From NCBI GenBank assembly GCA_002205965.3, contig NADL03000743.1, forward strand, positions 248,001 through 312,000: DNA of 64,000 nt, read 5' to 3'. Position 1 is the first letter of the stretch; the number at the start of each line of letters is the position of its first letter. Both the position numbers and the translations under genes were made by a program. Source of the stretch: Kappaphycus alvarezii. Its lineage: Eukaryota > Rhodophyta > Florideophyceae > Gigartinales > Solieriaceae. The notes under the pieces were generated by a model. The model did no database searches, was not told the origin of the DNA, and worked only from the letters and a program-made list of their open reading frames with translations. Below are positions 1-52,177 of the stretch, piece after piece.

Positions 1-311
1 CTGCAGTTACTGTACAAACTGTACAATATCTGTACGGTGCACCCCATGCAGAGAGGCATTAAGCTCACGTGAGCCGAAGCAAACTCTCTAAGCCCGTTTA
101 GTGACGCAAACAGCCTTCTGTAAAGCTCCTGGCCTTTGCCGACCGTATGCAAAACGAGAATTTGTTAGTCAAGCGGCAGCAATAACGTCGTCTAGGTCTC
201 ATGCGAATTGCCTCTCTTCAATTGCAAGCATCCCGAAGTCCGATTTGCAGCGACACAAAAGAATTACCTCACGACGTCACTAAAGCTGACGCAAATCTTA
301 TTTTGACGAGG

Positions 312-722
312 ATGCCTCGTGTCTCACAAAAAGCCCTACGACCACGGCAGTATATCTTTCACAAGGTTTCGCCAGAGCAAGTAACAAAGCTAGCCCCAGG
401 TATCCGAAAGCTTCGTGACGAGGAGCGCGCGGCTGATGCTCGTGCTCGTGCAGAAAGAGCGGAGAGAGTCAAGATGGAGGCTGCCAGGCATGCGGAGAAT
501 ATCATGTCTGGTATGCACTGTGCAGACCCTGAAAGCGATACTATTCGTGCTCTGGAAAGGGAACTGGAAGAGCTCAAGGAGAAGAGAAGGTCCCTCTTTG
601 TGCACTTGAAGAAAGCCATTGATTCTAACGAGGCCAAAGTAGAACCTAAGGCGGTTGCCGCGTCGTCAAAAGTGATTAAGACTGAGAGTAAAATCGAAAG
701 CAAGACGGCAACAAGTGAGTAA
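312..722 (+). CDS. Small nuclear-type coiled-coil protein, GPS2-like motif
   Basis: An open frame of 136 codons starts at the ATG at 312; the frame stays open upstream to 201, but the residues there look non-conserved. A basic N-terminus is followed by a highly charged Arg/Glu/Ala helix (about residues 30-60). A second helix (about residues 75-105) contains ELEELKEKRRSLFVHLKKAI. That pattern, a Glu-rich helix ending in (L/S)LFxxLKK, resembles the helix of the corepressor subunit GPS2 as I remember it; this is resemblance of a short motif, not proof of orthology. The tail is Lys/Ser/Glu-rich. A GTGAGT donor-like hexamer overlaps the stop, so another exon downstream is possible. The next 1.1 kb to the bZIP gene shows no recognisable coding continuation. 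That a gene exists is fairly likely; its function is uncertain. Confidence 0.5.
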   Translation: MPRVSQKALRPRQYIFHKVSPEQVTKLAPGIRKLRDEERAADARARAERAERVKMEAARHAENIMSGMHCADPESDTIRALERELEELKEKRRSLFVHLKKAIDSNEAKVEPKAVAASSKVIKTESKIESKTATSE

Positions 723-1818
723 TGTCGTAGGAGAAAGTTCGGCGCAACAGAGAGCCACCATCCGCGCGGCAAGCGCCGAGCATTTTCCTGTTCTACACGG
801 TTGTGGATATTCGATTGACGTGCGCGGTTTACGTAGTCTTTTATTACCATTCAGCTGCTTACTGGGCAATATCTAATCCCATTTCCAAGAGATCAACGCG
901 ACACATCGTGGTGGCATTCACAACCACAGGATGCACCGCGGACGTCAACTAGAGGGTTGAGTAGAGGGGAAGGGGGTGGGAAGATAGAGTGGATCACTGC
1001 GCTCGAGGTAACGGGATGTTGTAATGAGGATGCTGGCGAAGGAGGGCTTCAATCTATTGCAGATGGGCGGGTGACTTTCACGGATGAATGTCACATGTTT
1101 CCTGTATACCAATGCTCTCGAATCACCCGACAATAGTTCCTCCAAAATTCAACTTCAGGACATTGCCGATATCCGTCCCATTCCTTTCCATATCAAAGAC
1201 CTATAAGTTACCATCGAATAGTTTCTAATGCCGAGGGTAAACCACTATTTTGATGCAAAGCGGGTCGCCTCTAAAACAAGGCATCACGCAACAGAGAGTT
1301 CTTCCTTTTCAGTTTTTTTTGTATTTTCGTGTTTTTTGTTGTTAACAAGGGACAGCAACTTGGTCGTCGCCAAACCTCAACCTTCATTTCACCAACATGC
1401 TTTCAGCGGCAACATATCGAAGCCAAAGTGGCCAACGCCAAAAACGCACGCAACCCCGCTACACCCCCTCCGCACACCAAGACATGCTACTGTGCCACCA
1501 AGCTCAAAGCCGCTCGCTCCACCTTGGCCGTGAGAGAGAAATTTCCATTCAACAAACACACATCAAGCCCAAGTTTCAAACACACACAAACACAACCATA
1601 GATATGTCAACCCACGCCGTGGCCAAGTCACGCACGCGAGTCCAACAACAGGAATGACGCTGCCAAGCGGGGCCCTGCAGCACAGGTTGCCATTGGTTCT
1701 TCCCCAAACTGAAACGCGTGACACCCTCAAACAGCCGCAACCAAAACAATGGCACCAGACGCGACCGTGCCATTGTCTTATTCACAAGTACCACAACCGC
1801 CGCGACCTAGCTAACCCC
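723..1818. other. Intergenic region, no gene recognised
   Basis: No reading frame here shows a known domain. The stretch 1,228-1,660 has overlapping short frames of low-complexity Thr/His/Pro residues in all three forward phases, which is what CA-rich non-coding DNA gives. It lies downstream of the bZIP gene (which runs leftward and ends at 1,819), so it may hold that gene's 3' UTR. Confidence 0.4.
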
Positions 1819-2807
1819 TCATCCACCCAGCTTCATTTTCAACGCGGCGGTCGACCTGCCCGGGTCTGCCTCATTCTCTCCAAACACGGTCCTCATTCGC
1901 GCCACCTCCTTGTTCGCCAAAGCGAGACGATCCCTCAGCTTGACATTCTCCTCATGCAAGGAAATGCCAACCTCAACCATACGACCTGTAACCTGCATCA
2001 AATCATCAACCTCCTCTTGCAATTCTGCCAGTGTAGCCTGTCTTTTCTGTCGACTGCGACGTGCACTTTCTCGATTCCGTAGCTTGCGCTTGTACAAAAC
2101 CAGCTCGCGTTCAGTAGCGTTCATCTTGCGAACTTCTGCACTGGTAGTTCCATCGAGATTGCCGAGGATTTCCTTTGGAAACTGCCTAGCCTCCCTCTCG
2201 CGCTTCTCCTTGAGCGAGATACTAGGCTCAACGCTGGTGGGGGCGTGAACCTTGCGGACGACGACCGGCCTCACGGTGGTAGGGGCGGGGGCGGATTGAG
2301 TGGGCATTTGTATTGAGTGTTGATGGGATTGGGGTACCTGATGGGTGGTAGGGGGCGGGGCGGGCGAGGGGTGTGTTTGTGAGTAAGCTGATGGCAAGTG
2401 TGCGGGGGCGAGGCCCGGGCGGGAAGAGGCGGGTGTGGGTTTTGCAAGGGGTGCTTTGCGAGCGACATAACATCGTTTGAAAGGACGGAGGAGGGATCCA
2501 GGTCTGATTCTATCTTGATTAGCTCCTTTTTCACATCTGTGGGCACGCCGAGGGAGGACGGTTGAGGATGGGGCATGGGTTTTTCGATACGACCGGCGTT
2601 GACTGGCAGGGAGGGTAAGAGAAGGTCTAGATCCGGTGCATCTTCAGCAGGTTCTCCATCTAAGCGAACTTGAAGGACCGAGGGCAAAAGGGGACGTGCC
2701 CATGCTTGCCAGCTGGAGGAGGGAGAGGAAGGGGTGTGACTGGGGGAAGAGATGAAGGCGTCGATGGATCCGAGGCCCTCCCACATGGGATCGTCACGAT
2801 CTTCCAT
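1819..2807 (-). CDS. bZIP transcription factor
   Basis: Sequence-specific nuclear DNA-binding protein that should dimerise through a leucine zipper. The C-terminal half carries a textbook basic region, KLRNRESARRSRQKRQ, with the invariant N-x7-R spacing. It is followed by heptad positions over about 50 residues ending near MRTVFG. The N-terminal half is acidic and Pro/Ser-rich, plausible as an activation region. The ATG at 2,807 begins MEDRDDPMWEG. The gene is read in two phases that meet in a proline-rich linker at about 2,340-2,475. Two explanations fit. One is a 134-nt phase-0 intron (donor GTTATG at 2,471, acceptor CAG ending at 2,338), giving about 284 residues. The other is one base missing from the G/C run near 2,405, giving about 329 residues. 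Given the pattern of missing bases elsewhere, I slightly favour the second. Upstream (2,808-3,500) is a long polypyrimidine tract on the coding strand. Confidence 0.9.
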
Positions 2808-3500
2808 GCCTTTTGAGGTTGGGGCGATCTAGTGTGAGTGATTGATGAATGGGGAAAAGAAGCGAGATCGGGAACCAGCTAGGCGGGCGGGAGGGGCAAG
2901 GCTTCACGAAGGGCAAAAGATGAAGCAACAACAAGAGATGAGAAAGGAGTGTGTGAAAGAGATGAAGGGATCTAGGTTGGGGAGGGGGGGATGGATGAGG
3001 GTAGGTATGTAGGTGAGTAGGTTAGTGGGGTGGTGACGGAAGTTGGGAGGTGGGAAGTGAAAGGGCGACGGGAAGGGTAGGTGAAAAATTGGGGATTAAA
3101 GAAGGATTTGATGAAAAAGATGAGAGAGAGGTGTAAGGTGGTAGGTAGGGAGGAAGGGAAGTTGGTATGGGAAAGGGCACGGAGGAAGAATGGACGGTTG
3201 GTGAGGGGAGGTGAGAAGTATGGGTATGGGCAAGAGGGATGTATGGAGGGAAGAAGAACGAATCGTGAAAAATGGTGGTCGAGGGGGGAGGGGGTGGGTT
3301 GGGGAGGTAGAGGAGGAAAGCGGTGGGGATGTGTAGCAGATGATTGGAGAAGTGTTGCGAGAGATGGGGAGAGAGGGCACATGATGATAATAATAATGAA
3401 AGAAAAGAAAAAAGAAAAAAGAAAAAAGAAAAGAAAAAAAAAACCTTTTTCTCTCTCTGTACTGCTGCATTTAGTGTACAGTACTGTACACCACAGCATG
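2808..3500 (-). promoter_or_regulatory. Polypyrimidine-rich upstream region of the bZIP gene
   Basis: Read on the bZIP coding strand, this 0.7 kb is almost continuous C/T, ending in a run of T with scattered C at 3,395-3,440. Next to it, at about 3,475-3,492, is a GTAC-type palindrome (TGTACAGTACTGTACA). Long frames exist here but are low-complexity Phe/Ser/Pro on one strand and Arg/Lys/Glu on the other, and I do not regard them as genes. Position and composition suggest promoter and 5' leader; this is inference. Confidence 0.4.
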
Positions 3501-4135
3501 TGGGGTGATGTGGGACGTACAAGCATGTATTCGTGGCATGTTGATTGCGATCGTTGTCAGAAGAAGCGTCTCGAAGGCTTCTTCCGTTCGCCCGACCTAT
3601 CAAACATCAGCTTACACCAAAATATTGCATCGCTGGCTATCCCCCATTGGGCACTTACAATTGAACCAATCAAACATCAGATTATGGCGTCGACATTTAG
3701 ATCACAGATCCCGTCTCCGCCTAATTTAACTCTCCTGCTCAACTTTCCCCAAACCCTCGCTAATTCCTGTCAATACTTTCACACCTGTCCTACAGTACCT
3801 CTCAATCGTACACCCCTTACCCTCTCGGCCATCCGCTTCATCTGCCTACCCACCTCTCTCTTCCTCCCTTGCTTCGCTCGCCCGACCAACCACCCACCAC
3901 ATCCACGCACCTCCGCCCATCAACCACCTCCCTCTCCCTCTCCCATTCGGCACAACGACCAACCCCTCTGCCCTCTCACTCATTTTACTTTCAAACACAT
4001 ACCTATCCACCCAAACCAACACCCAATTCATCCAATTGTTTCCTTCCCACCGTGCACTCGCGTAACTCCATCACACACACACACAAAAAGCATATGCCAC
4101 CACCCTGCCTCTCCTTTACCAAACACCGAATCTAC
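3501..4135. other. CT-rich spacer with CA dinucleotide run, no gene
   Basis: Pyrimidine-rich on the + strand, with a short (CA)n run at about 4,072-4,086. It lies directly downstream of the ZnT5-like gene on the minus strand. I searched it on that strand for the missing cation-efflux domain (histidine loop, HxxxD metal sites) and saw nothing convincing. Confidence 0.5.
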
Positions 4136-5498
4136 CTATCGACTCTCATCCACAGCCGTACCCTCCTGTCCAATACTCGTCCTACTAGCCGCAGAGCTAT
4201 CAATAGGCAGTTCCGATAAACTTCTCTTAACCCCACCCGCCATCATCATCGATATTCCCACACAATCCAGTACAAAAGCCGCCACTAAAATCCAACTCAC
4301 CCCCCCGCACTTGCACCCGCCCCAAACACCACACTCGTCACCCCGGCCATCAAAAACGGGATCACCACACCACTCTGCATCATAGTCCGTTGCGGCAATG
4401 CTGTCGACACAATCGCCCTCACATAATACGGCAACACCAACCACAAAAACCCCACCATCACAAACCCCACCACATGTCCCACCGTCAAATCCATTCGCGT
4501 GATACCTCCAATCACGCTCAAACTAAGCACCGCACCGCTCGAGCTCGACACCCAACTCACCAACGCAAGCGGGCTCAGCCATCCGCACGCTGCAGTAGTA
4601 CTCAGTGCAAAATGTCGCTTGGCACCGCCCAGTTCCGTTGCGAGCCGTCGTGTAAATGCACGGCTTGATTGCATCACAATCGACGCCACCAATACCAGCA
4701 TCACCCCAATTTCGCATCGTAGTGCCGTGCCTTCCACAAAAGCGTCGCGGACACTACCCGTGCTTTTGACTGGCGGATCGTACGTCGTTAGCAGTCGTCT
4801 TCTCCTTGTGCGCTCACCTTGACCAAAGTCCGCCTCGTTGACGTCTGGTCCTTGGTCATCGCCGATATGTACAATGTGACTCAGTTCCGCCCCCGTCTTG
4901 TTTGCCAGTCGTCCGATTGTGGTTTCTGCCTGCTGCGCAATGTTGCTCCTTTCAATCTCACTGAGGGCGGGTACATGTCCCGACGCATCCCAGATCAAGA
5001 GCAGGTAGGCCATGAGCATGCATATGGCGCCTCTTGTTTTCCGTCGCTCCGGCAGTTCCCTTCTTGACACCACGCAAACAAATACAACAGCGGTAGTTCT
5101 GCACCGTCGATCAGCAGTGTGCGCAACGGTCCCGCTGATCGTAGACCCGCCGTCCACGTGTACAATGTGACTGCAAGAATGGCGCCTGCGATCAACACGC
5201 GACGTCCGCGCTTTTGACCGATTCGTTTGCCGTTCCATGGTTGTTGTAACGCGAGTAAGGTGGCGGCGGCCCCGAGGGTGACGAAAAATAGGTAGAGGGG
5301 AAGGGCTACGCGGTCCTGAAGGTAGTGAAAAGATACAAAGGCGGCAAATACGCGGGAAGCTTTGCCTAGAGTGAGGGTAGCAAGGGCGGGGGCAAAGGAA
5401 AGCTGGGCTTGTCGTTGACGCGGTTTTGAGGAGGAGCGGGAAGAGGATTTGGAGCCAGGTTTGGAACCAGGTTTAGGGAGAACTAGATTATTCGGCAT
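4136..5498 (-). CDS. ZnT5/MTP12-like N-terminal membrane protein without the CDF domain
   Basis: Polytopic membrane protein matching the N-terminal half of the secretory-pathway zinc transporter ZnT5 (SLC30A5; MTP12 in plants, Msc2 in yeast). Recognised landmarks in order: GLRSAGPLRTLL (human GLTLCGPLRTLL), KTRGA followed by a hydrophobic helix, a variable acidic/Arg loop, LATELGGAKRHFALS (human LSVDVGGAKRLQALS), then three or four more hydrophobic helices. The start is the ATG at 5,498, followed by a Lys/Ser/Arg-rich cytosolic tail. The protein is read in three phases, joined near 5,060-5,075 and in a run of seven C at 4,301-4,307; each join needs just one more base. The total would be about 454 residues, against 765 in human ZnT5. 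The C-terminal cation-efflux domain is absent before the TAG at 4,136 and is not seen downstream. Divergent from TyrRS. Confidence 0.8.
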
Positions 5499-6173
5499 TT
5501 TGTTTGACAAGGAAGCGGCTGCACACCGCAAAGGTGAAGATCGGTGACGAGTGTTTAGCAGATGAGGAGGGGGAATAGGGGACACGAGGTAAAGAAGGAT
5601 TTAGATGCGAGCTTCTGTCTTGTTTAGGTTGGGAAAGTTTCAACACGGTTGGTGGAGTGGGCGCCTGGAACTGGCGAGAGCGGAATGGGAAACGACCGGA
5701 AGCAACATATGCACGGTACACTAAATTTCAATCCAAGAGAGGAACATTCTTGAAAAGGGGAATGGAAAGATTTATTTCAACTATACTGCTCTACAATAGG
5801 GCTTGGGATAGTGTAAGCTTTCGAAAAGACGATTTTTTGATTGGACCAAGTGGCGCTTCTGTAAATCGGTACCACTTGCATTCTATCTGAATCTATGTCG
5901 GTTATTGAGCGGTTAACTACAAGCTGTATAAATTTACAGTACTAATGAATGTATTGAACGAATTGAACGAATGAATAAACACTTTACAGTAAAGTGTGCA
6001 TACGCCTTTCTGCGGCCGACCGGTTAATCCAGTCAGCGTAGTGTACCATACTGACACTATGTACAGATGTTAGTTTTGTAAAAAACTTTACAGTGAACAT
6101 ATCACATTACTGTAAGTGCATTCCATAGGATGCACAGTGCAGTAACGGCACCTCACTGTCTAATCTTGCCTCA
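5499..6173. promoter_or_regulatory. Divergent promoter spacer between ZnT5-like and TyrRS genes
   Basis: This 0.7-kb region separates two start codons that point away from each other. It is AT-richer than both genes and has several short TTTACAGT/ACTGTAAA-type elements at about 5,935-6,115, plus a short local repeat of GAATTGAACGAA-like words at 5,955-5,980. I cannot identify a TATA box or transcription start. Confidence 0.45.
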
Positions 6174-7768
6174 ATGCTCAATCTCACAATACCGGAATGC
6201 ATCAACTCTTTAAGGAGAATTGAGCTCCTTTTTCCTCAACCGCAACTGATTCAATTCGTTGCCCCGCTCCCCGATGCGCACTTCGCTCTTATCCCGCGCG
6301 GCATTTGCCGTATGCATTCCCATATCCTGCTCTCATCAGGCCTTTCCCATCTCTGCCGTTCCTCCCCCCATCGGCCCACACTCACTAACCGCAAAGTCAC
6401 AAGCCGCCCCATCGCCTCCCTGTCTCCCCTACCCACCGATACAACCACCACGCCCGGCATAGACTCAAGGCCAAATGTCATCGATGTACTTCAACAACGA
6501 GGCTTATTCGATAGCTCCACGGCAGATATTGACACCATGCGCAAGCTCTGCGCCTCTCCAATTGGCGTTTACACAGGCTTCGACCCAACGGCCGACTCGC
6601 TCCATCTGGGAAATCTTCTTGCCATTTTAGCGTTGGCATGGTTTCAACGGTGCGGTCATAGGATATATGCTCTGGTCGGTGGCGCTACGGGTAAAGTTGG
6701 AGACCCGAGCGGGAAAAGCGCCGAAAGGCCCGTCTTGAATGACCGCACCATTTCTGAGAACCTTGCTGGAATAGAGTCAAACTTAAGGCAGGTTCTTCAA
6801 CGCTCTGCGGACGATGTGCGACGAGCCGGCTGGCCTGTCGTTGACCCTCTCGTTGTTAACAACCATGATTGGGTCGGGCCTATGTCTTTTTTGGACTTTC
6901 TCCGGGATGTCGGTAAGTATGCGCGCGTTAATACTATGATGGCAAAGGATTCTGTCAAGACAAGGTTGCAAAGCGATGAAGGTATGAGCTTCACAGAGTT
7001 TACATATCAGCTGCTGCAGGCGTATGATTTTATGCATTTGAGTGACACGGAGGATGTTTCCTTCCAGTTGGGCGGCTCTGATCAGTGGGGGAATATAACT
7101 GCGGGAACGGAGCTCACAAGGAAACTGCGATCGAGGACGGTGCACGGTATCACGTTTCCTTTACTAACTACAAATGACGGCAAGAAGTTTGGCAAGAGCG
7201 AAAAGGGCGCCATATGGCTTTCTCCTGACAAGCTTTCTCCATATGAGTTTTATCAGTATCTGGTGCGGACGCCTGATGAAGACGTGATCAAGTTTCTCAG
7301 GAGCTCTCGTTTTTACCGTTGGAGGAGATTGCGCAAATTGAGCGTGATATGTCGAGTAAGGGCTACGTGCCAAATACAGCACAAAAGAAACTTGCAGAGG
7401 AGGTGACCAGAATTGTCCATGGAGACAAGGGGGTTGCCTCTGCACTCGCCGCAACAGCAGCGGCAGCACCCGGTAGTAAAGCGGTTTTGAGCGTAGAGGC
7501 CTTGGAGGCTATTTCAGCGGATATGCCCAGTGCAACCATGCCAAAGGCACAAGTCGTAGAGTCGTTTCTAGTAGACATTATGGTTACTTGTGGTCTGCAA
7601 AAGTCAAAGGGAGAAGCTCGGCGACTTATCCGCAACGGTGGCGCCTACATGAATAATCAAAGGGTTACGGATGAGAAATCTCAAGTGAACGAGAGCGATT
7701 TGGTAGGCGGGCGACTAGTTTTGTTGGGAGCGGGAAAGAAAAACAAGATGCTTGTTCGGGTCGAGTGA
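6174..7768 (+). CDS. YARS2: Tyrosyl-tRNA synthetase, bacterial/organellar type
   Basis: Charges tRNA-Tyr with tyrosine in mitochondria and/or plastid. The class I catalytic core is complete: the HIGH-type motif HLGN (near 6,600) after GFDPTADSLH, the GATGKVGDPSGKS segment, the tyrosine-site signature LGGSDQWGNI (near 7,070), and the KMSKS-type loop KKFGKSEKGAIWL (near 7,185). The C-terminal part ends in an S4 RNA-binding domain (about 7,540-7,765; GEARRLIRNGGAYMNN). The first 80-100 residues are Ser/Arg/Pro-rich with few acidic residues, as expected of a transit peptide; either the ATG at 6,174 or the one at 6,312 could be the start. One base is missing at the GG of 7,300-7,301: before it the frame reads to FLR, after it ELSFLPLEEIAQIE continues, exactly as in the family. 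Length would be 485-531 residues. Converges on POLD3, 174 bp away. Confidence 0.95.
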
Positions 7769-7942
7769 TGGATGTGCGCAGAGGGAAGAAGCTTCCCTGC
7801 AAATCGACTCTATTGCGATTCGCGACACGATCTAATCCCTACACCGATATTTACTCGTTCCCGTTTGCTACGAAATGAAATGCCAAGTTTGATGATTACC
7901 ACAAGTTATCTCAAGCTTAATGTGTGAGTGACTGGAAAGTTC

Positions 7943-9413
7943 TCACTTGAAATAGGACCAAATGTTTCCATTGATCATCTTCTTTGACGCCTTCCTTGCT
8001 AATGATGTTCCAAGACTAGCGGAAGACTTCCTCGCATCCTTCGCCTTCTCATTGGATTGCGACTTGCCATTCCGCGCATTCGCAGAGGAGACCTTATTCA
8101 TAACAGAGGATGCCAAAAATGACTTGCCTTTCCCTTTCAAGTCAAACCTCCGATTACTGGCAGCGACCTTCGGGGCCTTTTCCTCGACGATTTCGTTCCA
8201 TTCTCATCCACCTCCTTAATCACGACTCTGTCTATCATGTATCCGTCTTTTCCCTGGAATGTTTCGCGCACTTCCTTCTTGATTCTCCGGGGCGACTAAC
8301 CTCCGGCATCCCCAAAGCCTCATTTAGTTTGCGCTTCTCGGGGTTAGATTATTGGAGAATATCTCATTCAGCTTGCGTTTCTCAGGCGTGAGATCATCCG
8401 AGGCACTATTCTTCGTGTCGATCTCCATTGCGGATGGTCCGTCATCCAGATCGCGAATAGTAGGGCTCTGAGGTTCCTCATCATCATCATCTTCTTCGTC
8501 CTTAAACAATTCCTTGGCTCGAGAGCAACCTCATGACGGTCACTTTCCATGCGCGCCCTTTCCTTTTCAGCCCGCTCCTGCTCGGCTGCCTCCCTCTTCA
8601 AGGCCTCCTGCTCCTTGTCAACATCACTATCGCCATCATCACTGTCCTCCTCGATAATTCGTCGTCCCTTGCTAACCTCTCCCCCAAACGCCGGGTCACC
8701 GTCTGTGCATTAGTCTTCTTGCTTTCACCTTGATTGGCTGCGCGGATCTTGGCTAGCGCAGCGGCACCAAGCCTTGTACAAGCAGAGCTACTCGCCTTCT
8801 TCTTGGAGTTTGAATTAGAGGCCAGAGATTTGAAGATGTTTTTATGCGACATAGTCCGTTTCACGCCTTTGGCCTTTTGGCCTCGGGTGATCTCCGCCAG
8901 TAGAGCGCCTCCAAATGGCTTGTCTTGGCCGCGCATAGACCACGACGAAATCAAACCACCGTTCGTTTTTGCCTTGGATGGAGGCTTTTGGATACCAGCA
9001 GATTCAGCTGCATCTGATGGTTTCCAGATGCCTGCATCACTCTTGATGGGATTGAGGCTGCCATTCCTCAAGGTATTGGTCTCTGCAACAGGGGCGCCGG
9101 ACAACTTGAGGGCATCGTCGGAATCCGACGTAAACCAGAGCGGAAGAGTACTAGAGGTCGCAATGGCCCATACGCTCTTCGTAAGAAAAGTACTCGGAGG
9201 GCATGTCGTAAGCGCAACGTTACGATTAGCCGTTGAAGAAAGAGTTGTTATGCACCAAAGGATTTCGGTGTCTGGATGAGTGGCGGCGTAAGAAATCAGA
9301 AGAGACTGGGCTTCAGTGTTTGAGATTTTAAGATGAGAGGACAAATAGCGGAACGAGACTGGGATGTTGCTGGAAAGGAGCAGCGATTCGATTGCAAGTT
9401 CGTTCGAAGACAT
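7943..9413 (-). CDS. POLD3: DNA polymerase delta subunit 3 (POLD3/Cdc27 family)
   Basis: Non-catalytic subunit linking polymerase delta to PCNA. The N-terminal about 100 residues are a winged-helix domain (VSFRYLSSHLKISNTEAQSL), aligning with human VTYKWLSYTLGVHVNQAKQM. The rest is a long, disordered, Lys/Glu-rich tail with an acidic DEEDDDDEE patch. A segment IKKEVRETFQGKDGYMIDR matches human LKSKTYLDGEGCIVTEK in place and pattern. The extreme C-terminus, NGNIWSYFK, is a PIP-box-like PCNA-binding peptide with Asn instead of the usual Gln. The start is the ATG at 9,413. The reading phase changes five times (near 8,690, 8,515, 8,340, 8,288 and 8,186), every time by one missing base, giving about 491 residues in total; human POLD3 has 466. 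A short internal repeat (LTPEKRKLNE) occurs twice, at about 8,330-8,395. Confidence 0.87.
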
Positions 9414-12225
9414 TCTTGCCAAGCAAGGAAAGATGCCAAGAGATGCGAAGATGGATGTTGGATGTTGGATAGGTGAGAGGGGGGAGAGGGGAGAGGGGAG
9501 AGGGAGACGAGACGAGGGCGGTTAAATAGTGGTAGGATTGGATGCGATGGAGGGAGTGGCCGGCGGTTGGAGATTTGCGGCGATGCAAGCTTAAAGTGCG
9601 CGGTCGGACAAAAGTGGGCCTGTCCCGCACATAGCCGTTGGTACTGCAAGCCTCTACATATTACGTGGGGATGCGCTCGGAATTTAGTGGATTTCTGGTA
9701 GCTTGTAGGTTTTCGCGGGAACTACGTATTGTGCTTGAAGCATTGAAATTTTTTTTGCTTTTTTATTGCTTACAGTAAGTATGGATTTACATGTGACCTG
9801 TACTGTACTGTATATGGCCATTTACGTCAAATCACGTATCTAGCACCGTCGCCTTGAACATTTTAAATTTTGATCCAGAAACCACCAACACCATTCAATT
9901 CCCCAATTTCAAAAATGCTCGGTGGCAACGTTCTCCTCGGCTTGTATTTGACGCGTGGTTCAAGCTGTGTATCATCATTCAAGGCCGTTATGTCTGTTTT
10001 TTTGCTACCGTTGAGTAGTTCACGCATTGAGGCAGCACTTTGCCTGCAACTATCTCCAGGAAGATCGAAAAAGTGGCCTGGATTTAACCGTAATTCTTTT
10101 ATCCAGAATACTTTTTTCATTTCTGTTATCCCTACCCGACGGATTGCTTTTTAAATTCGTATTCGTGCAACGACTGACTGTCGGCCGACTTTAAGAATCC
10201 GTTCAGTCAGCAGAACCGAGCAGGCTACCACTCCTTGCATCACCCTCGGCACAGCTTGAACTGGGAAAAGGAAGCTGTAGGGATTCGATAGAGTCTAGTA
10301 AGTTTCAGTTAATAGCGCGCTTCACAAGTAGTGCTGCCTGTATTTTAGTGCCAGCTCTGTTCAATTGGAAAATATTGATGAATTTTCGTGCTTCTGTAAT
10401 TACTATTGAGCGTGTGCTTTTGTATAGTGCCAGTTTAAGACGATTTTACAGGGGTGGCACTAAACCGGAGTTTCCTCTTCCACTCCATCATGCACGCGGC
10501 TGATTCGACTCAACCTGATAGCTCTTCTTACAATCCTAAACTACTGTACAGTACAGTTCCGTCAGTGTATCTGCAGGAAACACAAGAGTTGCCGTAAATA
10601 AATTTAAGAATCACATTCGCGTTGCGGCACATTTTAATTCGATTTGACACGCATCAATGTGCTGTACTGATTTGCCAATACTGCACAGCACAGTACGAGC
10701 CGGTTTGGCCCGAACAAATCTGGTTCACATCTTGCAGTTTTGGCAAAATCCCAAATTCAGTATGGATTCCATACTGAATTAGGGATTTTTTTCATATGCA
10801 CGCGCTGCTCAGCATGTTTTGGCGGCTACGCCCCTTTCATTGGCATAAGTACTGTACTATACATTATTACACGTACATGTATCTTCGAATATCGCCCCGT
10901 CTCCGTCCGAGTCCGGCCCTCCACATCAACTTTCCTCGATGTCTGCCACAGCGTCTGCGACTCACGACCACGGCAGGAGAGTCGCAAAGTGTGTGCAACA
11001 CATAACGACGTTTTCGCATGCATCAGCCTTGTGGATCGGCCTTTATCATGACCCACGCCGTCGGACCTTTTCGAAATCTGATCTCCGCCGGTGACACCCT
11101 GCCAGAGGCCTCTTGCCTGGACAGTACAGTACTCTACTGTACATGCACAGTGTCATCCTCACAGATCAAGTACAGTATATGGTTCACTCCCCCATCCAAG
11201 CAGCCGTTGCTGCCAGCCCAAAAGACGCATCCGTGCCCGGGCGTGCACCGCCCGCTACTCCATTCCATTCCCATTCCTCGCACCTCTCTGTTGCCGGCCA
11301 TGTCCTGACGACCGGGGTTGTCTCGTCGCCAGGACACTACCCTTAACAGGGTTCAGGGTTGTGCATCTGGGAGCCACGGCACGGCACCACTGGGCACCAC
11401 TGGAAGGCTCACGAATGGGAAGCCACGCCCATGCCATCCCAACGTAGAAAAGCCGACGTACGCCCTCGAATTCGCGGTCTAACATTTGGCTTCAGCCCAG
11501 CCGCCTCCTTCCTCATCACACAACCGATCAACGCCACTACCGTCATCACCACCCACTAGACCGTTAATCTTCAATGTGACCTCGGCCTCTGTGTCTTCCC
11601 CGTCCGTCCCCCACTTGCCACCACTGCCACAACCACTAAACGTATTCACCGACCCCGCTGCTGACGTGTGCCCCTATATTCTTATCTGCATCTACCGTCA
11701 CAATTCAGTTCGCATCGCCCTTACCATACTTCCTTTCCGCGCTCCCGGCCAGAAATGCGAGATCAATGCCCCTTTCCTCATCTCCGTGTCCAAACTGCAG
11801 CCTGCGCACATCCTCTTGCATCCTCCTGGCACACCATCGCGACCGTTACCAGCCCCTTCACAAGCGTCATCGGGATTGTTTCTCTAGAACAATCTATAAG
11901 TTCCGCGGGCTTGCGTCCAGACAGGCCCGTCAACTCTTCAACCTCCCCGACGGCCCAATAACCGCCCTCAAGTTCTCCCTCCAGTCCATGGCCCGTGATT
12001 CTTTTCATTCCCCTCCTCATGCCACCACTGAACTCATTGATAAACTCATCCCCAAAATTAATCGTTACTTATATATTGATACTGGAGTGATTCGTCACAG
12101 CATCATTTGATAAACGCTTGAATTCCGTCTAATTTTTGCGTCTGTTTCGATGTTTGTCCTGCAAGGAACCATTCCGCGAGCCGCTAAGGGTTGACTCGGT
12201 AGTGTTCTCCTTTATCATAGTCTGT
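9414..12225. other. 2.8-kb region without a supportable gene
   Basis: From 9,414 to about 9,650 is the C/T-rich upstream region of POLD3 on its coding strand. Beyond that the sequence is AT-richer and dotted with GTAC/TACAGTAC palindromes (9,775-9,815; 10,545-10,560; 10,665-10,695; 11,123-11,175). Short frames at 10,740-11,450 and 11,486-12,110 show no domain, and their overlapping Pro/Ser/His-rich versions in several phases argue against coding. A small inverted repeat (AGTGCCA...TGGCACT) lies at about 10,427-10,466. No RNA gene was recognised. Confidence 0.4.
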
Positions 12226-29312: not shown

Positions 29313-30608
29313 TTACATATAATCATCAATGTTACTCGGCAACTCGGGAATCCTCGTCGAATAGGACCGCTCAATGGCACCCAAAGCCCGTAATTCTGAA
29401 GAAGTAACAAACGTTATAGCAACCCCCGTGCGACCAAATCTGCCGCTTCGCCCAATTCGATGTAAGTAAGCTTCATGCTGGGGAGGCATGTCATAATTGA
29501 TTACAAGGCTCACTTGTTTCACATCAATTCCCCGCGACCACAAGTCTGTCGCAATAAGCACTCTTGACAATCCACCGCGATACGCCTCCAAAGTTTCGTC
29601 TCGTTCCTTTTGAGATTGTCCACTATGCATTGACGATACCGCAAATCCATTCCTCCGCATTCTCTTGGCGAGCCATTCTACCTTTGCCCGACTGTTGCAA
29701 AATATGACGGCTTGTGTGATTGTCAACGTCTCGTACAAGTCGCACAATGTCTCGAACTTCCACTCTTCCTGCTCCACATCTACATAGAATTGTTTTAACG
29801 ACTCGAGACTAAGCCCATCCTTCTTCACAAGAACCATCACTGGCTCACTCATAAAGCGCCGACTCATATCCACAACTTCGCGCGGCAAAGTGGCCGAGAC
29901 CAGGGCAACCTGAACATCCTCTGGCATATAGCGATAAATGTCATAAAGCTGCTCTTTGAACCCATGGCCCAACATCTGATCTGCTTCATCTACTATCAAC
30001 AAGCGAACCTGATCAAGCTCCAAAACGCCGCGTCGAATCATATCATACACTCTCCCCGGAGTGCCGCTTAGTACGTGCACTCCTCCGCCTTCCAGCTTAC
30101 GAATGTCCTTTCCGACGCTCCGCCCACCGACACACGCATGAACCTTGACCGGCATAAACTCGCCCAAAAGAGCAACAGTATCCGCCGTTTGTACTGCCAA
30201 CTCTCTTGTCGGAGACAGGACGACAACTTGCGTTCTCGAATTACTGGGTGAGACAACCTGCAATGCGACCACAGCTATCATGACGGTTTTTCCAGTTCCC
30301 GATTGAGCTTGCGCCACGACGTCCTTTCCACAAATCATTGGAACAATGCACCTTTGTTGAATTGGGGACGGGACACTGAAGCCCCCAGAATAAACGCCCC
30401 GCAGAAGCTCAGGTTTCAATTTCATCGAATCGAAAGTTGTGTGGATATCTAGCCGAGAGGTTGAGGAGAATGTTGCGGACTCTGCCTCTCGACCAGAACC
30501 ACGGGAAAGTTGAGAAAGACCGGGAGAACACGATCGTGCGGCATGTTGTGGCAAAGAGGTGCCTGATGCCGGTGAACCAGGACGAGGGGGAATTGAGGGG
30601 GACCGCAT
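29313..30608 (-). CDS. eIF4A-type DEAD-box RNA helicase
   Basis: ATP-dependent RNA helicase of the eIF4A/eIF4A-III group, acting in translation initiation or as exon-junction/ribosome-biogenesis factor. All motifs are intact and in order: Q motif ([12 protein letters not shown]), I (AQSGTGKT), Ia (PTRELA), GG, Ib (TPGR), II (DEAD), III (SAT), IV (VIFCNSR), V ([11 protein letters not shown]) and VI ([11 protein letters not shown]). The C-terminal [16 protein letters not shown] follows the family pattern (YSTQIDEMP... in human eIF4A-III). I chose the ATG at 30,608, giving 431 residues, slightly longer than the usual 400-411 because of a Ser/Pro-rich N-terminal extension of about 55 residues. 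No intron and no phase break in 1.3 kb, unlike most genes in this window. I cannot say which eIF4A paralogue it is. Confidence 0.95.
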
Positions 30609-30668
30609 TTCCGAGGTGAGAGCAGTACGGGCGTCCAACGCAGTTACACAGATTACTCGGGGCAGCAA

Positions 30669-31339
30669 AAGTGCAGTTTATGCGACTCCTTGGTTGCGCT
30701 CATTTCCAGGATGGGACGGTGCAACGGCAGACAGGGGGCCGGTTAGAGTGTTCGACAATTAGCCAAGCAAATAAGCGAGATGGAATCCTCTGTATCCCGT
30801 AGCTCACACGAATTTAGATCCATCTTCGGGCTTTTGGATGATACATGTAACATCAATTAGACGAACATCTGTGAAGAATCCGATCGGCGGTGCTGTAAGC
30901 AACTCTTATAACGCTTTTAATTGGTGCACGGAAATGCTATTTAAAGAACTTCTTCAGCCTTCTGTAAATACTAAACGTGATGATACAGCACCGGCCGTTG
31001 CCGAAGACAAAATTTCAAGGTTGAAAACGTGTTCAGCAAAGTACAGCACAGTACTGTACACTGTAGTACATATTTGTACAGCAAAGTATGCAAAGTGCTG
31101 TACAGTGCACATGCAGTACAGTACAGTTTATTGAACCCTTTCACTTCCACGACTCTTGTCGCATACAGTACAGGACTGCACAGCCCCATAATTTTGGGAG
31201 ATGCTTTTAGAGGTTTCCAGACGCATTTCCCCAGAGGTGCGGTAGGTTAAGGGTGATAGGTGCACGGCACAGCACAGTACAAATACTACAATACTGTGCT
31301 ATGCCGTACAAGAAACGAAGGGAAGTTACACTTGGTCGC
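30669..31339. other. Intergenic with dense GTAC palindromes
   Basis: Between the DEAD-box gene and tRNA-Val. The stretch 31,035-31,140 is packed with overlapping TACAGTAC/GTACTGTAC words, as is 31,265-31,310. No gene recognised. Confidence 0.5.
31198..31229. repeat. Conserved 32-nt hairpin, copy A
   Basis: GAGATGC, an 18-nt loop, GCATTTC. The same architecture with the same spacing occurs at 39,834-39,865, and the flanks are also alike (a CAGCCCxATAAT stretch before, a GGTxxGxTAGGTT stretch after). Together the two copies span about 85 bp of similarity. Probably a small dispersed element. Confidence 0.75.
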
Positions 31340-31374: not shown

Positions 31375-31447
31375 TACCGCATCCAAGGTTCGAACTTGGG
31401 ACCTATGGCGTGTAAGACCATTGCTCTAACCACTGAGCTAATACGGC
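31375..31447 (-). tRNA. tRNA-Val (anticodon UAC)
   Basis: A complete 73-nt cloverleaf on the minus strand. The acceptor stem GCCGTAT pairs with ATGCGGT, allowing G-U pairs, and the discriminator is A at 31,375. D arm GCTC...GAGC; anticodon stem ATGGT/GCCAT with loop CTTACAC; T arm CCAAG-TTCGAAC-CTTGG. The loop puts UAC (complement of 31,412-31,414) at positions 34-36, reading GUA valine. No intron and no encoded CCA, as expected for a nuclear tRNA. Internal A box (TTAGCTCAGTGGTTAGAG) and B box (GTTCGAACC) are present, and a T8 terminator follows. Confidence 0.96.
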
Positions 31448-32241: not shown

Positions 32242-32295
32242 CCAAGGTAAGCGGCTTCTGCCAGGGTAACCAACCCGCCGCTTACCCTGGCAGAA
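32202..32295. repeat. Twin 40-bp hairpins at the palindrome centre
   Basis: TTCTGCCAGGGTAA and its reverse complement TTACCCTGGCAGAA flank a 12-nt loop (CCAACCCGCCGC). The whole hairpin occurs twice in direct orientation (32,202-32,241 and 32,256-32,295), separated by 14 nt. The loops have the same orientation, so the centre of the large palindrome is not itself palindromic in these 12-nt segments. Confidence 0.9.
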
Positions 32296-32307
32296 GCGGA
32301 GATAATC

Positions 32308-35300
32308 ATGGCCGACCCTACCCTCCGCACCGACCCCGCCGTTCCGAGGCCCGACGCCTAGTCTCTTCCGTCGGGCCCATTCAGAATCTGTGCCCACGCA
32401 CTGGCCTCCTTCCCACCCCCCGAAAAATGTCATCTCCATTGGCATTTCCCCATCCGTTGACCCCAGCCGTGCGTTCCGCTCATATGACCAAGCGCAAAAG
32501 GCCCTCCTTGCTGCGGCGGCTGACGTCGGTCTCGCTATGCCGTCCCACGTCCTCCTTCCGCATTTCGGGCAGTGGACCTACGTCTACATCCCCGAACCGA
32601 CCCTGCCGCGGTTCTACCGCATTCTAGCCCAAATGAAATTCTCATTCAAGGACCTCCAGGTGACGACGTCCTCACCGGCCGCCTCACTACACTGCCTCGC
32701 GCCCCATGCGGCACGCGGCGCCGCTGCCTGGCTTGCCCGAGAAATCCGGGCCATCACCAGCACCTCTGTGCGCTCCACGGTCCCACTCGAGACGCGCCGA
32801 GCCCTCCGCGACGCTCTCGTGGCATCTCGCCAGGCCCTCGAGACCGCCCTCAACGAAAGAAGAAACGCCACCCGAGCCATCCTCACGGCTCCCGACCCAA
32901 GCCCCAACACCCCGACCGTCAACACCTCGACCTCCACCGCACCCAGGCCCCTCCCGTGACCGCCACCCAGCCGCTCCTTCCCCCATCCTTCCTCCCTCGT
33001 CCCAGGCCCCCAAACGCCCTTCTGCCACCCCGCCTACATCGTCGCCCGCCATAAGACCCCAAGGCACCCCGTCCGAGGACGAGGATGCAACCCTTAACTC
33101 GCCCGGCGGCTCCCCGTCGGCCACGAAGCGTCGCTGCCCGGCAGCGACTCAACCCGCCGGGCCGGCACAAGAAAAAGGAGTCGACACCCTCATGGTGCCA
33201 CCCCTCCCGACTCTCCCGGCAACACGGCAGGAGCGAGGCCCCGACCAACCGTCGGCTGTCCCCGCGGACCCGATCCCCCCCTCCCGTGACTACCTTGGAC
33301 TCCGCCATGCCGGACGCTCCGCCGGCTGCATGCGTCACGAAGGAAGTGCCGACCCCAGAGGATGTATGTGAAATGGCCGTGGCGGTGTCGACCCACCCGC
33401 AGGGCCAATCTGCGTAAGCGCTCACACCCCCCCCCCTCAACACATCGCAATGACTCCTCTATCCCTCAATCCCCTTCCCCCATCCCCGAAGCCAACTCTC
33501 ACCTTCCTTCCCCCTTGAAGTCCTCCGCACCCCATTTCGTGAGGCGGACATCTTCCAAAACATTCCCTTCCCATGCCTCAAGCCCTTCATCCTACTGTTC
33601 ATCAAGCTGATCCGCACAGCGGCCAACGCTCGAGGCGATGATGCCACCCACCGGGCATTTCTTCATCTCCACATGCTTCCTACTGCGGTCATGCGCCGCT
33701 CCCTACGAAGGAGAACAAGGATGGCAGCACCCCAAGGGCCAACACGCAGCACTCAGCTCCCGGATACGTCGTGCCCATACTGGCACTGAGTGGGCAGCCC
33801 TCTGGTCTGAAGCCTTGAATGCACACCACGCCCGCACCGAATGGACGGAACAACACCGCCCAAGGCCGCGTCCAGCCCCGCGCGCAGGGCGCGGCGAGCG
33901 CAAGTTCTATGTGCTGATGCCCGCCACGGCAAGGCTATGAGGTCGCTTCACAATGCCCCGCTAGCAGATGTGAAAGACCCTGCAACCATCGAAGCACTCC
34001 GCACCTTACACCCCGCGACCCCGCGCCCGATCACCCCCATTCCAACAGACTCCCTCCCACCGCCGCCTGTTGTTACAAGAGAAGCCGTTGAGAACGCCGT
34101 CCGTCGCCTTTCCCGGGATACGGCGGCCGGCCCTGATCGTACGCCGGCGCGCTGGTTCCATCTGCTCGTGCAGACGCCAGTAAGCCCGGAAGCCGGTATT
34201 ACGGGCAAGGGGGTGCTTACGCAACTCGTTTCTCGGATCGCGAGAGGTGACCTGCCAACCTCAGTCCTGCCGCTCCTGGCTGCAGCAACCCTGCTACCTC
34301 TGCGGCCCAAACCCAACAAGATTCGGCCCATCGCCGTAGGAACGATCCTCCGCAGAGTGGTAACGAAGACACTCCTCCCACCCGCCATTGATGATTCTCG
34401 TCAATTTCTGGCCCCTTCCAATTGGCTAACGGCATCAGGGCTGGGATGGACGCCATCGTACACGACACGCGCATGCTGCTCCGTCGCTTCTCTAATCGCA
34501 AGGATACCGCCACTGTTCTCGTTGACGCGAATAACGCCTTCAACCGCGTTGATCGCCAGTCAATGCTAGACCAGCTGCCCACGCGCGCCCCAAGTCTCGC
34601 CCGGTTCATCAACATGATTTATGCACGCTCGCAACCACCGTTGATCGTGCCGAATCGTGACAAAACGACCATCGCGAGTGCTCAAGGCACACAGCAAGGC
34701 GACCCTGCCAGCATGCTCCTGTTCTCGCTGAAGATCCAGCCCCTCATCCGCCGGATTGCAGAAAACACGGGCATCGTCCTCAACCAATGGTACGCCGATG
34801 ATGGTACATTGATGGGGTCCCTCCCGACCTCCGACAAGCCCTTCACATTCTCCGCGACGAGGGACCCACCTACGGCCTACATCTCAATCCGGGGAAAACG
34901 CGCATTCATTGGCCAACGGTCCTACGCCCACAGCGCGAGGCTTTTCTCCAGGAATTTCGCCTCGCTGAATGCTCAACGGACGGATTCGAGCTCCTCGGGG
35001 CTCCGCTCGGAAACCGGCATTTCACGAATGCCTTTCTACGAGACAAGATTGAGGGGTGCCGCCGAACTCTCCAACTCCTGCCCATGGTTGACGACCCGCG
35101 CGCGCGGTTTCACATGCACCGCCTCTGTGCGTCGGCCTGTCTGGTGGACCACGCCTTCAAGCTGGCTGACCCACGGGAAGCCCGTACTGCTGCCGAGGCT
35201 TTCGATACTCTGCTGCAAAAGTCCTTCACCGAGCTTCATGGTGTTCAACTCAGCGACAACGCGTGGTCGCAGGCTACCCTGCCCATGCATCAGGGCGGTC

Positions 35301-36130
35301 TTGGGTTCACCCTCATCTCACCGTTCCTAGATGGCGCCGCTGCCTCGAGTATCATGGATGCAGCACCGACACGACTGCGGTCCGCAGCCCATATCGGGCC
35401 CCGCTCCACCGCGCTCACGGGCGCCCGCTACCGCCGTGACAAGGCTTTCCTTCTCGGTCAAGCCGCACGTCACATTCGAGACTTCCTCCTGCACATCCCT
35501 GGAATGGCCTACCCCGTTAACCTCGATTCCTTCGACCCGCTTCCTCTGGCTACTGCACACACACACATCCAAACCTTCCTAAAACGTGTGCAGCAGGAGG
35601 CGCTGGCCAAGGTTCATTGGCGCGACGACCACTGGGCTACATCTCCGAACCCGGACCGACACACGGATGCAGATGTACGGCAACGCATACGCGGTCTAGC
35701 GCTACGCAAAGGCCCCGGTGCTGCCTTTCTTTACGCACATCCCTCGGCTGAGACGGAGGTGTCCGCGGTGCACTGGAAAATAATGCTTCGCCGATACTTG
35801 GGAATGCCCGTTTATGATGACTCGCTTCCTCGGAACTGCGAGCATTGTAAACGCCAAATGGACATATTAGGCGATCATGCTGTAGACTTGTGCCCGTCTG
35901 GGTTTGGTCGCAAACACCGGCATAACTCACTGCGCAACGTCATCGCTGGCCGTATCGCACGTGCCGCCGGCCTGGACTGCCAGCTCGAGGTCCCACTCCT
36001 CGTGCCCGGCACCGAGCTGCGACCCGCTGACATACTGGTTCACCCACCAGCTGCCCCGGAAGGCACTGTGGCCCGCCCGATCGCCTGCGACGTTACCGTA
36101 GTCTCGCCATTCAAGGACGATGTCAGAACG
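32308..36130 (+). mobile_element. Non-LTR retrotransposon (LINE) with reverse transcriptase and restriction-like endonuclease
   Basis: One long ORF seems to start at the ATG at 32,308. N-terminal part (to about 33,400): Ala/Arg-rich, then Pro/Ser-rich, with no clear fingers seen. Reverse transcriptase at about 33,530-34,860: KPNKIRPIAVG, NAFNRVDRQSM (first Asp region), QGTQQGDPASMLLFSL, and the catalytic YADDG at 34,791-34,805. After the thumb comes a CCHC-type finger (C-x2-C...H...C, about 35,837-35,891; CEHCKRQMDILGDHA), then RHNSLRN and a PD-(D/E)xK-like nuclease core with RPADIL (Asp at 36,029) and ACDVTV (Asp at 36,089). This layout is that of R2-like, RLE-bearing LINEs, many of which insert at fixed sites. 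The ORF changes phase at least four to six times, each consistent with one missing base. The 3' end (near 36,130) is cut off and joins a relic of the same family. Confidence 0.9.
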
Positions 36131-37360
36131 AGAGCTACAAGGGAAGTGCAGTTACGCATTCCTTCCCGCGCATCCCATCACCGACACGGAAGTGTCCACA
36201 GCGCACTGGAAGACCGCGGTACGTCGCCACATTGGAATATCTATCTACAATTATTCGCTCCTCCGACCTGTGGGAATTGCAAAAGACCCATGGGCAGGTT
36301 TGGGGTACCAGTCAGCGGACCTATAACCTTCTGGGCTCGCTCGCAAACACCCTCATGACTCGCTTCGCAACTTCATCGCTGTAATACAATGGGTATCCCG
36401 CAGGTTGGCGAACCTCGAGTGTGTGACCATAAACCATATTGAGGAGCCGCAGTAAGCCAAATGGCTTGTGTAAGGATCCATGCTGGAAGAAGAGTGTGGA
36501 TTCCTGTCCTGGTGATTTAGATGTGTCATACAGAAGATTTGGAGTCCAGCCGGGGATCACTGTAAATGTTGCGGAAGTCATTACAGCCTCAGGGATTTTT
36601 CGCGAGGAACAGTGGGTACGCACCGTTTGGAGGTTTGGCGACATGGGCTCGCAGCTCACCATCGTACGCATTGTTCCCAAGATGGTATCAGAAGCCCAAT
36701 GAATGGATGAAAGCGATTAGTGGAGATATCATTCACAGTACAGTGTAGATGTTGATTTTTTTTGGTTATGAAAGATAGAGATCTAGTGGTTAATGGGTAA
36801 AGAGGCAAGCAAACTGCGAAAAGCAATTTGACCCTAAACTTTGAGCGCGTCTCCAAGCCATCAGCACCGACCTGGATTAGTTAACCCCAGCCGGTTAACC
36901 GCCCGCCCACTGAACGCCTCAAACTCCTTGCTTCCTTGGCAATTCCTCTCCCTTTGGTGTAATTCCCCTTTATAGGTTTGTTCGCTCCACCAAACCAATT
37001 TCTCTACTGATAAACCATTTAATAGGTTTTTTATCCTAAAACCGCCGACCGTGTCGCCAGTGGATCCTTCCTGGACTGCCAGATTGAGGTCCCGCTCCCA
37101 GTACCAGGCATCGAGCTACAAGCCGCTAACATCCTCATCCAGCCACTGGCAGCTCCGATGGCACTGCGAAACGCCCTACTTGCTGCAATGTCACTGTCAT
37201 CTCTTCGGTCTAGGTCGACGTATGATAAATGGCTGCCAAAGAAGTTGTTCGGGCTGTTTCAGTTTCGCACTGCAACAAGGTCACTGATCTTGAACAAAAA
37301 CTGTCCAGTTGACTCCTGCACCCCTCCGACAATCACAGACAGGCCCTCAACTTCTACATA
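36131..37360 (+). mobile_element. Older relic(s) of the same RLE-type LINE family
   Basis: At 36,150-36,330 the sequence again encodes the stretch that precedes the CCHC finger (TDTEVSTAHWKTAVRRHIGI, against AETEVSAVHWKIMLRRYLGM at about 35,745 in the main copy). At 37,065-37,200 a diverged copy of the nuclease region appears (LDCQIEVPLPVPGIEL, against LDCQLEVPLLVPGTEL). They keep the original order but are separated by about 700 bp of unrelated sequence. The catalytic Asp of RPADIL is Asn here. These look like pieces of one older copy next to, or interrupted by, the younger one. Phases are broken. Confidence 0.75.
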
Positions 37361-49529: not shown

Positions 49530-52177
49530 ATGCTTCTACTTGATATGAGCGTTCGATTTGTGTGTCTGGCGAATTACAACTGCGTTTGTCGACCTGTTGG
49601 AAAGGCCGTCAATCTATCGAAGATGAAGCGGCACATGAGACTCGCAAATCATGAACGTAGCAAATTTGACCTGCCCTCACTATCTCAGGGAAAGAGGTAC
49701 ACGTCTCAAGAGGCGAACAAGCAGCGAGAAGGGTTCGAATATAACTTTTCACCTTACATGTACGATGGAGTAGAAGGTTCAAGCCGTTCGTGTAAACTTC
49801 TCAAGCAAGATGGATCAGTGTACAGGTTGAATATTGGGGCGAGTCACCCACATTTGCAATACTACACGATGATGGCGCAGAATATGTTCATCAGTTTGAA
49901 AATGGTATCCAAATTTCAAAAGAGAGAGGCATTATTAGCAAGAAGATCTCTCTAGAAGTCCTGATAATGCTTCGCAAGGCGCTATTATTGATCCTGGGAG
50001 CCCTTATTGACGGAACAATCGAATGACATCAACATTCCCCCGATTATTGACAGTCCTGACCATGAAGAAGGGGTTTTGTTTTATCAGGAGCCTGAATTTG
50101 AGGGCACAATATCTGACGGCTCTTCAGCCCTACAGAGTCCCAGAATGGCTGCCCGTTTTCTGCAATCTCAAACGGATTTGAGTGATCGGAGAAGTGAGGC
50201 GTTCTTGCAATTCCATACTTGGAGCATGGAGAACAGGAATTAAGTCAAGCTGGGCGTAAGCTTTGGGCTGAAGCAGACAGTCATGTCTCAAGTGCTACGC
50301 AACCTTGAAGCACCGTATGAAGCATGGATCACCATCAAGCGAAATCTGATCAAGTATTCACGGCTTGAAACATGGAAGTACGTCACTTGCCATGGGCATA
50401 TGCTTCTACGGACTGCGAGCGGTAATGAAGGTAACGCACTATTAGACGAAAGAGAGGAGCAAGGGCAACTGGAAAACTGTTCAGTCTGCGTGGAGAGAAA
50501 AACTACTGGCACGGTGGAAACGTTCGAGTACATTCCAATCCTCCCAAGACTAAATATGTGGTTCCAGGAAGAGAATGCTGCTAAGAAATTATATGAATAT
50601 CGGCGATCTTTGGTCACAGCAAGACAAGCCGGTGACAGACTTGATGAATTTTACGAGAATTATGTGGATGGATCTCTGTACAAGAGTATTGTCAATTCGA
50701 GGGCTGTGAAAGCGCTGCCACCTACGATTTTGTCATTGGTATTTCCACTGACGGATTCGATGATTTCAAGGGAAACCAGTACGACTGCGTGTCAATCATC
50801 AGCATGATACATAATCTGCATCCCTCACAGCGATTTCCCAGGAACAATGTTCTCCCTTTGGGTTTTTTTAAGGGCCCACGGGAACCAGTGTATCTGGATA
50901 CTTTCTTGGTTCCTTTCATTGAGAAGCTTCAAGGTATAAATAAGGATGGAGGTACCGAGTTTGAACTTTTCGACGGCTCTCGACACAAGGTAGTGGTTCA
51001 CGTGCTGTGGTTAAAGGGAGATGGTCCAGCATCTCAGAAGAGTGGAGGGTTTGTCGAAGCAAAAGGGATTTTCATGTGCCGGTTTTGCGACATTAAGGGG
51101 TTCAAATGCCCCCATTGCAACAGTTACTACTTTAAGTCGAAGATTCGTGTGCCCTCATCCCCCAATTCTCGATCTCGTATGGTCAAAAAATATGATCCGT
51201 CAAGGCTAACGCTTCCCACTCAAAGTGGAATCGAAAGAACGTTCCGCGCTCTTGCCAATCCAGATTTGTCCAGGAGCCGGCGAGGGAATATAAAAAGGAG
51301 AACTGGCATAACAAGGCGTACTGAATTGTATAATGTTCCTTCAATTGTTCCTTTCGTGTCATTCCCACTGGAAATCATGCACTTAATGATGAATATCACG
51401 AAAGACATTATGGCTTTGTGGAAATGGGAGGAAGCGTCTCTTGAATCGATTGAAGGAACGGCTGATTTTGTACTCAATAGCGAAGCTTGGAGTATTATTG
51501 ACGATGGTATACGCAAGCTTGGTAACGGCACGTCTTATGCTAGTTTTGGACGAAGGCCGCGGGACTCTTCCAAATATTCGTGTTGGAAGGCATAGGAGTG
51601 GCGAATGTTCATATCATACTATTTCATGATACTACTGCAAGGAAATCTCCCCCAACGTTTTATGAAGGGGTTAAGACAATTGTCTGACCTCTTCGAGCTA
51701 TGCATGCGTCCAACACTATTGCAACAGGGTCTCGATCCTATTTCACGTCTTTCGCTTTCGTTTTTCCAACACTTCGAGAAGGACTACTTCCAGTTCAGCA
51801 TCCGGAGGCTACATATGTGCAAGTATACAATTCATGCCTTGCTGCATCTTGCGGAAACCATTGAGCGTTGTTGTCCTCCCGTTCTTTTCAGCCAGTTCTG
51901 GATGGAACGATACGTGTTTTTCATAAATAATAGGCTACATTCCACAAGGAGGGCGGCTGAGTCTTTAACAGAGAATGCCAAACTAATGGAAAGCTACAAG
52001 CTATTCTTCGTAGAGCCTTTCTCGCACACTGACAGTGAAGAACTCCCATCATGTGAAGACAAGGTTGACTTGGCTGACGGACGAGGGCCCATCCGCTTTC
52101 TACAACCTCGTCGGTTACTCTCTCTAAATAGGAGAGATGCACGTCGCTGGAGGATGAGGACTCTTCTCATCGAATAA
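49530..52177 (+). mobile_element. CACTA-type (TNP2 family) DNA transposase
   Basis: Transposase of a cut-and-paste CACTA/EnSpm element. From the ATG at 49,530: a C2H2-like finger (Cys 12, 18, 20; His 35, 41; NLSKMKRHMRLANHE); an acidic linker; FEYIPILPRLNMWFQEENAA; then the core. Core residues are visible: Asp in STDGFDDF (50,750), Asp in LKGDGPA (51,020) followed by CRFCDIKG, and Glu in FPLEIMHLMMN (51,371). The C-terminal YTIHALLHLAETIERC and FWMERYVFFINNRLHS match the end of TNP2 proteins. The phase changes once near 50,712 (one base missing), and in-frame stops occur near 49,955, 50,243 and 51,595 that may mark introns or decay. All core residues are present, so this copy is fairly young. 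No CACTA...TAGTG termini were found by eye. Confidence 0.85.

Follow-up and report, generated by a model that had tools for sequence, protein, structure and literature searches.

Frame breaks in conserved genes of a Kappaphycus alvarezii draft contig are most likely consensus errors of an unevenly polished long-read assembly

Three neighbouring host genes in the window analysed here are broken by eight frame changes, all in the same direction. We consider it highly probable (roughly 0.92) that the organism itself carries these genes unbroken and that the breaks are consensus errors of an unevenly polished assembly of noisy long reads. They are most likely an artefact of assembly, already known in kind, and not new biology. 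The window is the whole stretch of 64,000 nucleotides that was examined (contig C739, positions 248001–312000), and it belongs to a eukaryotic draft genome of 336,021,096 bases in 884 contigs. A profile search of this genome for phycobilisome-type genes gave three matches over the cut-off, two of them strong, which points to a red alga. The preference of the preliminary description for long-read assembly error over pseudogenes was well supported by the second copies of other genes, through both the bias in gaps and the kind of base changes observed, as judged from the assembled sequence alone. The host genes concerned, together with a bZIP gene, are listed below.

1819–2828, minus strand: bZIP gene in two overlapping frames with one apparent join of the same sign; bZIP_1 (6.5e-11) on the C-terminal piece
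4995–5600, minus strand: ZnT5-like gene (name not verified), first piece; ORF; codon usage best of six only if stop codons count; no Pfam family at 0.01
4297–5472 (coding roughly 4300–5050), minus strand: ZnT5-like gene, second piece; ORFs and codon usage
4136–4522, minus strand: ZnT5-like gene, third piece; ORF and codon usage; C7 run at 4300–4306 inside the overlap with the join
6129–7406, plus strand: tyrosyl-tRNA synthetase (TyrRS) of bacterial/organelle type, catalytic piece; tRNA-synt_1b (1e-69) and PDB TyrRS (1.7e-83)
7280–7768, plus strand: TyrRS, C-terminal piece, in a frame one base early; SYY_C-terminal (1.3e-15), S4 (2.9e-7) and codon usage
8598–9521, minus strand: POLD3-like gene (name not verified), first piece, with Met at 9413; ORF and codon usage; no Pfam or PDB match
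7943–8709, minus strand: POLD3-like gene, five later pieces (ORFs 8368–8709, 8324–8530, 8235–8348, 8137–8295, and 7943–8203); ORFs and codon usage; each entered one base early

In the ORF lists, the frames of the POLD3-like gene on the minus strand, expressed as the low coordinate modulo three, ran 0-1-2-0-1-2 and gave five joins, those of the ZnT5-like gene ran 0-1-2 and gave two, and the TyrRS gene on the plus strand passed once from frame 0 to frame 2. At all eight joins, the reading resumed one base early, meaning that each lacks one base or carries two extra, and both the ORF lists and codon usage agreed with the preliminary description on this point. When scored with a table trained on six intact genes, codon usage ranked the claimed frame as the best of six in all 11 pieces. 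Leaving stop codons out of account reduced this to 10 of 11, the first ZnT5-like piece being the sole failure; the tested pieces were picked within ORFs, a choice that favours the claimed frame. The TyrRS was confirmed by Pfam domains on either side of its join and by TyrRS structures in the PDB matching the upstream side. The names POLD3 and ZnT5 did not find such backing, because the scanned pieces of the two genes matched no Pfam family over the cut-off and the first POLD3-like piece had no match in the PDB. The N-terminal piece of the bZIP gene likewise lacked a Pfam match. The run of seven cytosines that had been pointed out is indeed present in the ZnT5-like join overlap, with its coordinates corrected to those listed above, and the GG at the TyrRS join is also present, its position now made precise as 7300–7301.

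DNA searches with positions 1–6400 and 6500–9413 of the window returned no second copy of the host genes, and a protein search returned one second TyrRS, merely 46% identical. The argument for the eight window sites is therefore carried over from other loci, with which they presumably share a cause. A search of the genome with the chaperonin family profile (PF00118) detected whole genes beside genes split into several abutting pieces. Pairing by blastn gave partners for eight CCT-family loci, at about 93–97% DNA identity in the main blastn pieces, as expected for two haplotypes or homeologues and probably representing two haplotypes; at least one locus, on C479, had no partner among the loci compared. 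In four of the eight pairs, one copy carried the domain in a single frame and its partner was broken. These four pairs were scored for base changes between the unbroken copy and the broken one, and showed 74 synonymous changes and one nonsynonymous change. Such an excess indicates strong selection on the protein, so these four broken copies are not pseudogenes.

One-base gaps were distributed unequally between the two copies of the eight pairs. Inside the CCT domain, the rough copy lacked 23 bases and the better copy 8, whereas outside the Pfam domain (i.e., in flanking DNA, the ends of the genes, and portions of adjacent genes), the numbers were 69 and 21 (p 4e-7), and the two ratios did not differ (Fisher p 0.81). 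The rough copy was assigned from its coding breaks, which leaves the bias outside the domain as the one independent test. Indels beyond the coding domain are what consensus error leads one to expect, and the equal bias there speaks against recoding. Inside the domain (~12.3 kb), one-base gaps occurred at a rate of about 2.5 per kb, and the excess outside it (~20.1 kb) was about 2.4 per kb. Some of the 92 losses in the rough copies must be real allelic indels, because the better copies show 29 losses. The combination of private breaks and intact protein selection had exceptions. In one CCT-family pair (C736:2347282–2348773 and C585:1624628–1626112), two breaks occurred at identical places in both copies, in G runs, as seen by eye. 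Contig C585 carries this broken gene at 1.62 Mb and an unbroken CCT gene at 5.39 Mb, and the occurrence of unbroken and many-break family members, even on the same contig, indicates that the quality of the assembly is patchy.

Over three protein families, 39 of the 48 joins counted were early and nine were late (p 2e-5), the sign of each being taken modulo three. Of the table rows, this count used 56 of 59, 27 of 29, and 26 of 39, after isolated weak matches, messy rows from C571, and two small overlapping rows were dropped; another 14 frame changes (10 early and 4 late) were left out because the overlaps or gaps that they crossed were wider than a single join would allow. Among the nine late joins, at least one, on C585 at 1.62 Mb, corresponded to the loss of two bases when the pair was aligned. 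The same-direction rule put forward for the window was retained as an early bias of about 4:1, but nine late joins do not fit it, nor does the copy on C36, in which four one-base gains and one loss fell within a single gene and the coding part showed mostly gains. The joins tend towards one direction without being bound to it. Under a ratio of 39:9, eight early joins out of eight have a probability of 0.19, so the uniformity of the window requires no special cause.

The one-base gaps of three tRNA-synthetase pairs, which are not among the 92 losses, were unbiased (C755/C28, 2:2; C446/C13, 4:2; C749/C11, 1:3). In the Pfam table, C28 had a frame break where C755 had none. In the class-I tRNA synthetase pair at C749:1053600–1055500 and C11:97100–99000, which is about 99% identical and presumably ValRS-like, both copies were broken many times, and several of the breaks were, by eye, common to the two, making this pair a second exception to private breaks. 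An HSP70 copy at C120:174100–176000 contained many frame switches. Its seven in-frame TGA codons had raised the question of TGA recoding, which was rejected by eye from the frame switches in the three-frame translation, and its comparison with C497 was uninformative on errors, the latter being a different paralogue.

Beyond the host genes, the window contains the following features, for which the preliminary description had made related claims.

29313–30677, minus strand: DEAD-box helicase gene in one frame; coding sequence ungapped against a second copy at C739:36136
32269–36148, plus strand: LINE-like element with reverse transcriptase; RVT_1 (1.1e-7)
50244–52723, plus strand: remnant of a TNP2-type transposon; ORFs; Transposase_21 (2.1e-8) on 50648–51592 alone

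The DEAD-box gene had been described as having escaped breakage, and its single frame and its second copy bear this out; by the same token, the statement that nearly every conserved gene is broken was too broad. The DEAD-box region occurs twice on the contig (window 29000–31224 and C739:35600–40000), the two being 92% alike, about 240 kb apart, and in the same orientation, which may represent either a duplication or two haplotypes joined within one contig. A tRNA gene at 31375–31447 on the minus strand scored well over the Rfam threshold. The LINE-like element, about 3.88 kb long, has 17 other near-full-length copies at 95–98% identity and one at 92%, as well as more distant relatives at around 67–71%, and the copies often adjoin the same repeated blocks. 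The longest ORF of the window copy is 449 amino acids, against 898–954 amino acids in four of the eight other copies examined. When the window copy was compared with these eight of the 18 further near-full-length copies, private one-base changes over all nine amounted to 18 losses and two gains, and the window copy had six private losses, two private gains, and 26 private substitutions. The element had been thought to fit the loss rule; its private losses agree with this, but real divergence is mixed in, because gains and substitutions accompany the losses. The TNP2 remnant, which had been assigned to the same rule, does not follow it. Only one of its four pieces matches Transposase_21, and the single possible same-direction join, of which the upstream side is a candidate, is followed by two in-frame stops (51593–51595 and 52175–52177). 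With these stops, the remnant looks like a case of decay by the preliminary description's own view of true pseudogenes.

Purely homopolymer under-calling, the mechanism originally proposed for the breaks, was found to explain part of the pattern. Runs of four or more bases accounted for 14 of the 92 losses, against 5.9% expected from the share of bases in such runs in the better copies, a 2.6-fold enrichment (p 0.0009), and both the C7 run inside the ZnT5-like join overlap and the G runs at the common breaks of one CCT-family pair are in keeping with it. However, 42 losses were at single bases and 22 in runs of two, together 64 of the 92, with a further 14 in runs of three, and it is improbable that homopolymers are the whole explanation. 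A search for runs in 19 break intervals was discounted, as the intervals were too wide to serve as evidence. The breaks common to both copies are a different matter, since private random errors do not explain them; they might be systematic under-calls of runs, or they might come from contigs that are redundant, one set of reads having been assembled twice. That the common breaks in the CCT G runs, and possibly those of C749/C11, are real in the DNA and tolerated via ribosome or polymerase slippage seems very improbable.

Two further explanations would place the breaks in the biology of the alga. Real pseudogenes, arising by decay of the second copies in a genome that is duplicated or of hybrid origin, would suit the two diverged copies at the eight CCT-family loci, the several common breaks seen by eye in C749/C11, and the in-frame stops of the TNP2 remnant. 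We regard this explanation as very unlikely, because the broken copies of the four scored CCT pairs did not show the relaxed protein selection expected of a pseudogene, the gap bias was equal outside the CCT domain, and the window host genes returned no second copy beyond the distant TyrRS. Recoding throughout the genome, in which ribosomal frameshifting or RNA editing restores the frame in the manner of Euplotes, except that one base is read twice, would account for the single sign of the eight window breaks, the conservation of protein sequence across the breaks, and the two common breaks in G runs. Programmed frameshifting is nevertheless expected to shift in a single direction, whereas joins of both signs occurred and the C36 copy had its four gains. 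Nor were sites conserved between alleles as recoding would demand: the partner was unbroken within the domain in four of the eight CCT pairs, and one pair had two sites in common. The lost bases and run lengths also varied among sites, as read by inspection from the sequence contexts in the CCT pairs, and the bias extended outside the domain. Recoding is accordingly extremely unlikely on the present evidence. When the literature was searched for frameshifting by ribosomes in the nuclear genomes of red algae, none of the papers listed was, by its title, on the subject.

Consensus error, the explanation that we favour, would operate as follows. The breaks would be single-base, and sometimes two-base, errors in the consensus. 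Where a locus has two assembled copies, probably haplotypes, one may be accurate while its partner retains some 2–3 one-base errors in each kilobase; these would be mostly losses and would affect both coding and non-coding DNA. The stretch with the ZnT5-like, TyrRS, and POLD3-like genes would then be a poorly corrected patch. The underlying platform is one that we infer, and low coverage, missed polishing, or merged haplotypes may have caused the uneven correction; as the stretch has one assembled copy, merged haplotypes are one possible cause of the window breaks.

These errors have consequences for the use of the draft. In gene sets derived from it, many housekeeping genes will be split or called pseudogenes, and claims of gene loss or recoding based on the assembly call for verification in reads or in a second copy. 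If the common breaks were real in the DNA, which is unlikely, they would be rare tolerated frameshifts in an algal nucleus.

The +1 frameshifting of Euplotes, as described in PMC10235951 and PMC4759687, resembles the present case in that many genes require a frame change, but the sign here is the opposite, the partner copy is unbroken in half of the CCT pairs, and gaps also occur outside the domain. Long-read bacterial drafts treated in the account of Kastor (PMC12007338) are closer: false deletions made up most of their indels, and, as here, they led to frameshifted pseudogene calls, although the deletions described there were highly associated with runs of 2–8 and the association is weaker in our data. 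In the material on an early FALCON assembly of avian PacBio reads (PMC5632298), the merging of haplotypes introduced indels, which would suit a once-represented locus in a divergent two-copy genome, but both the assembler and the merging are conjectural for the window. In vertebrate genomes, inaccurate CLR consensus left short indels that shifted reading frames (PMC8081667), and in the TLK1 gene of Anna's hummingbird, assembled from PacBio CLR, one haplotype drew all the polishing reads and the other kept its frameshift errors (Extended Data Fig. 11a of that paper). The window locus differs from this case in having no second assembled copy and in a platform that is only surmised, but the likeness lies in the pattern itself: one accurate copy, another with frame-breaking short indels, and an assembly of patchy quality.
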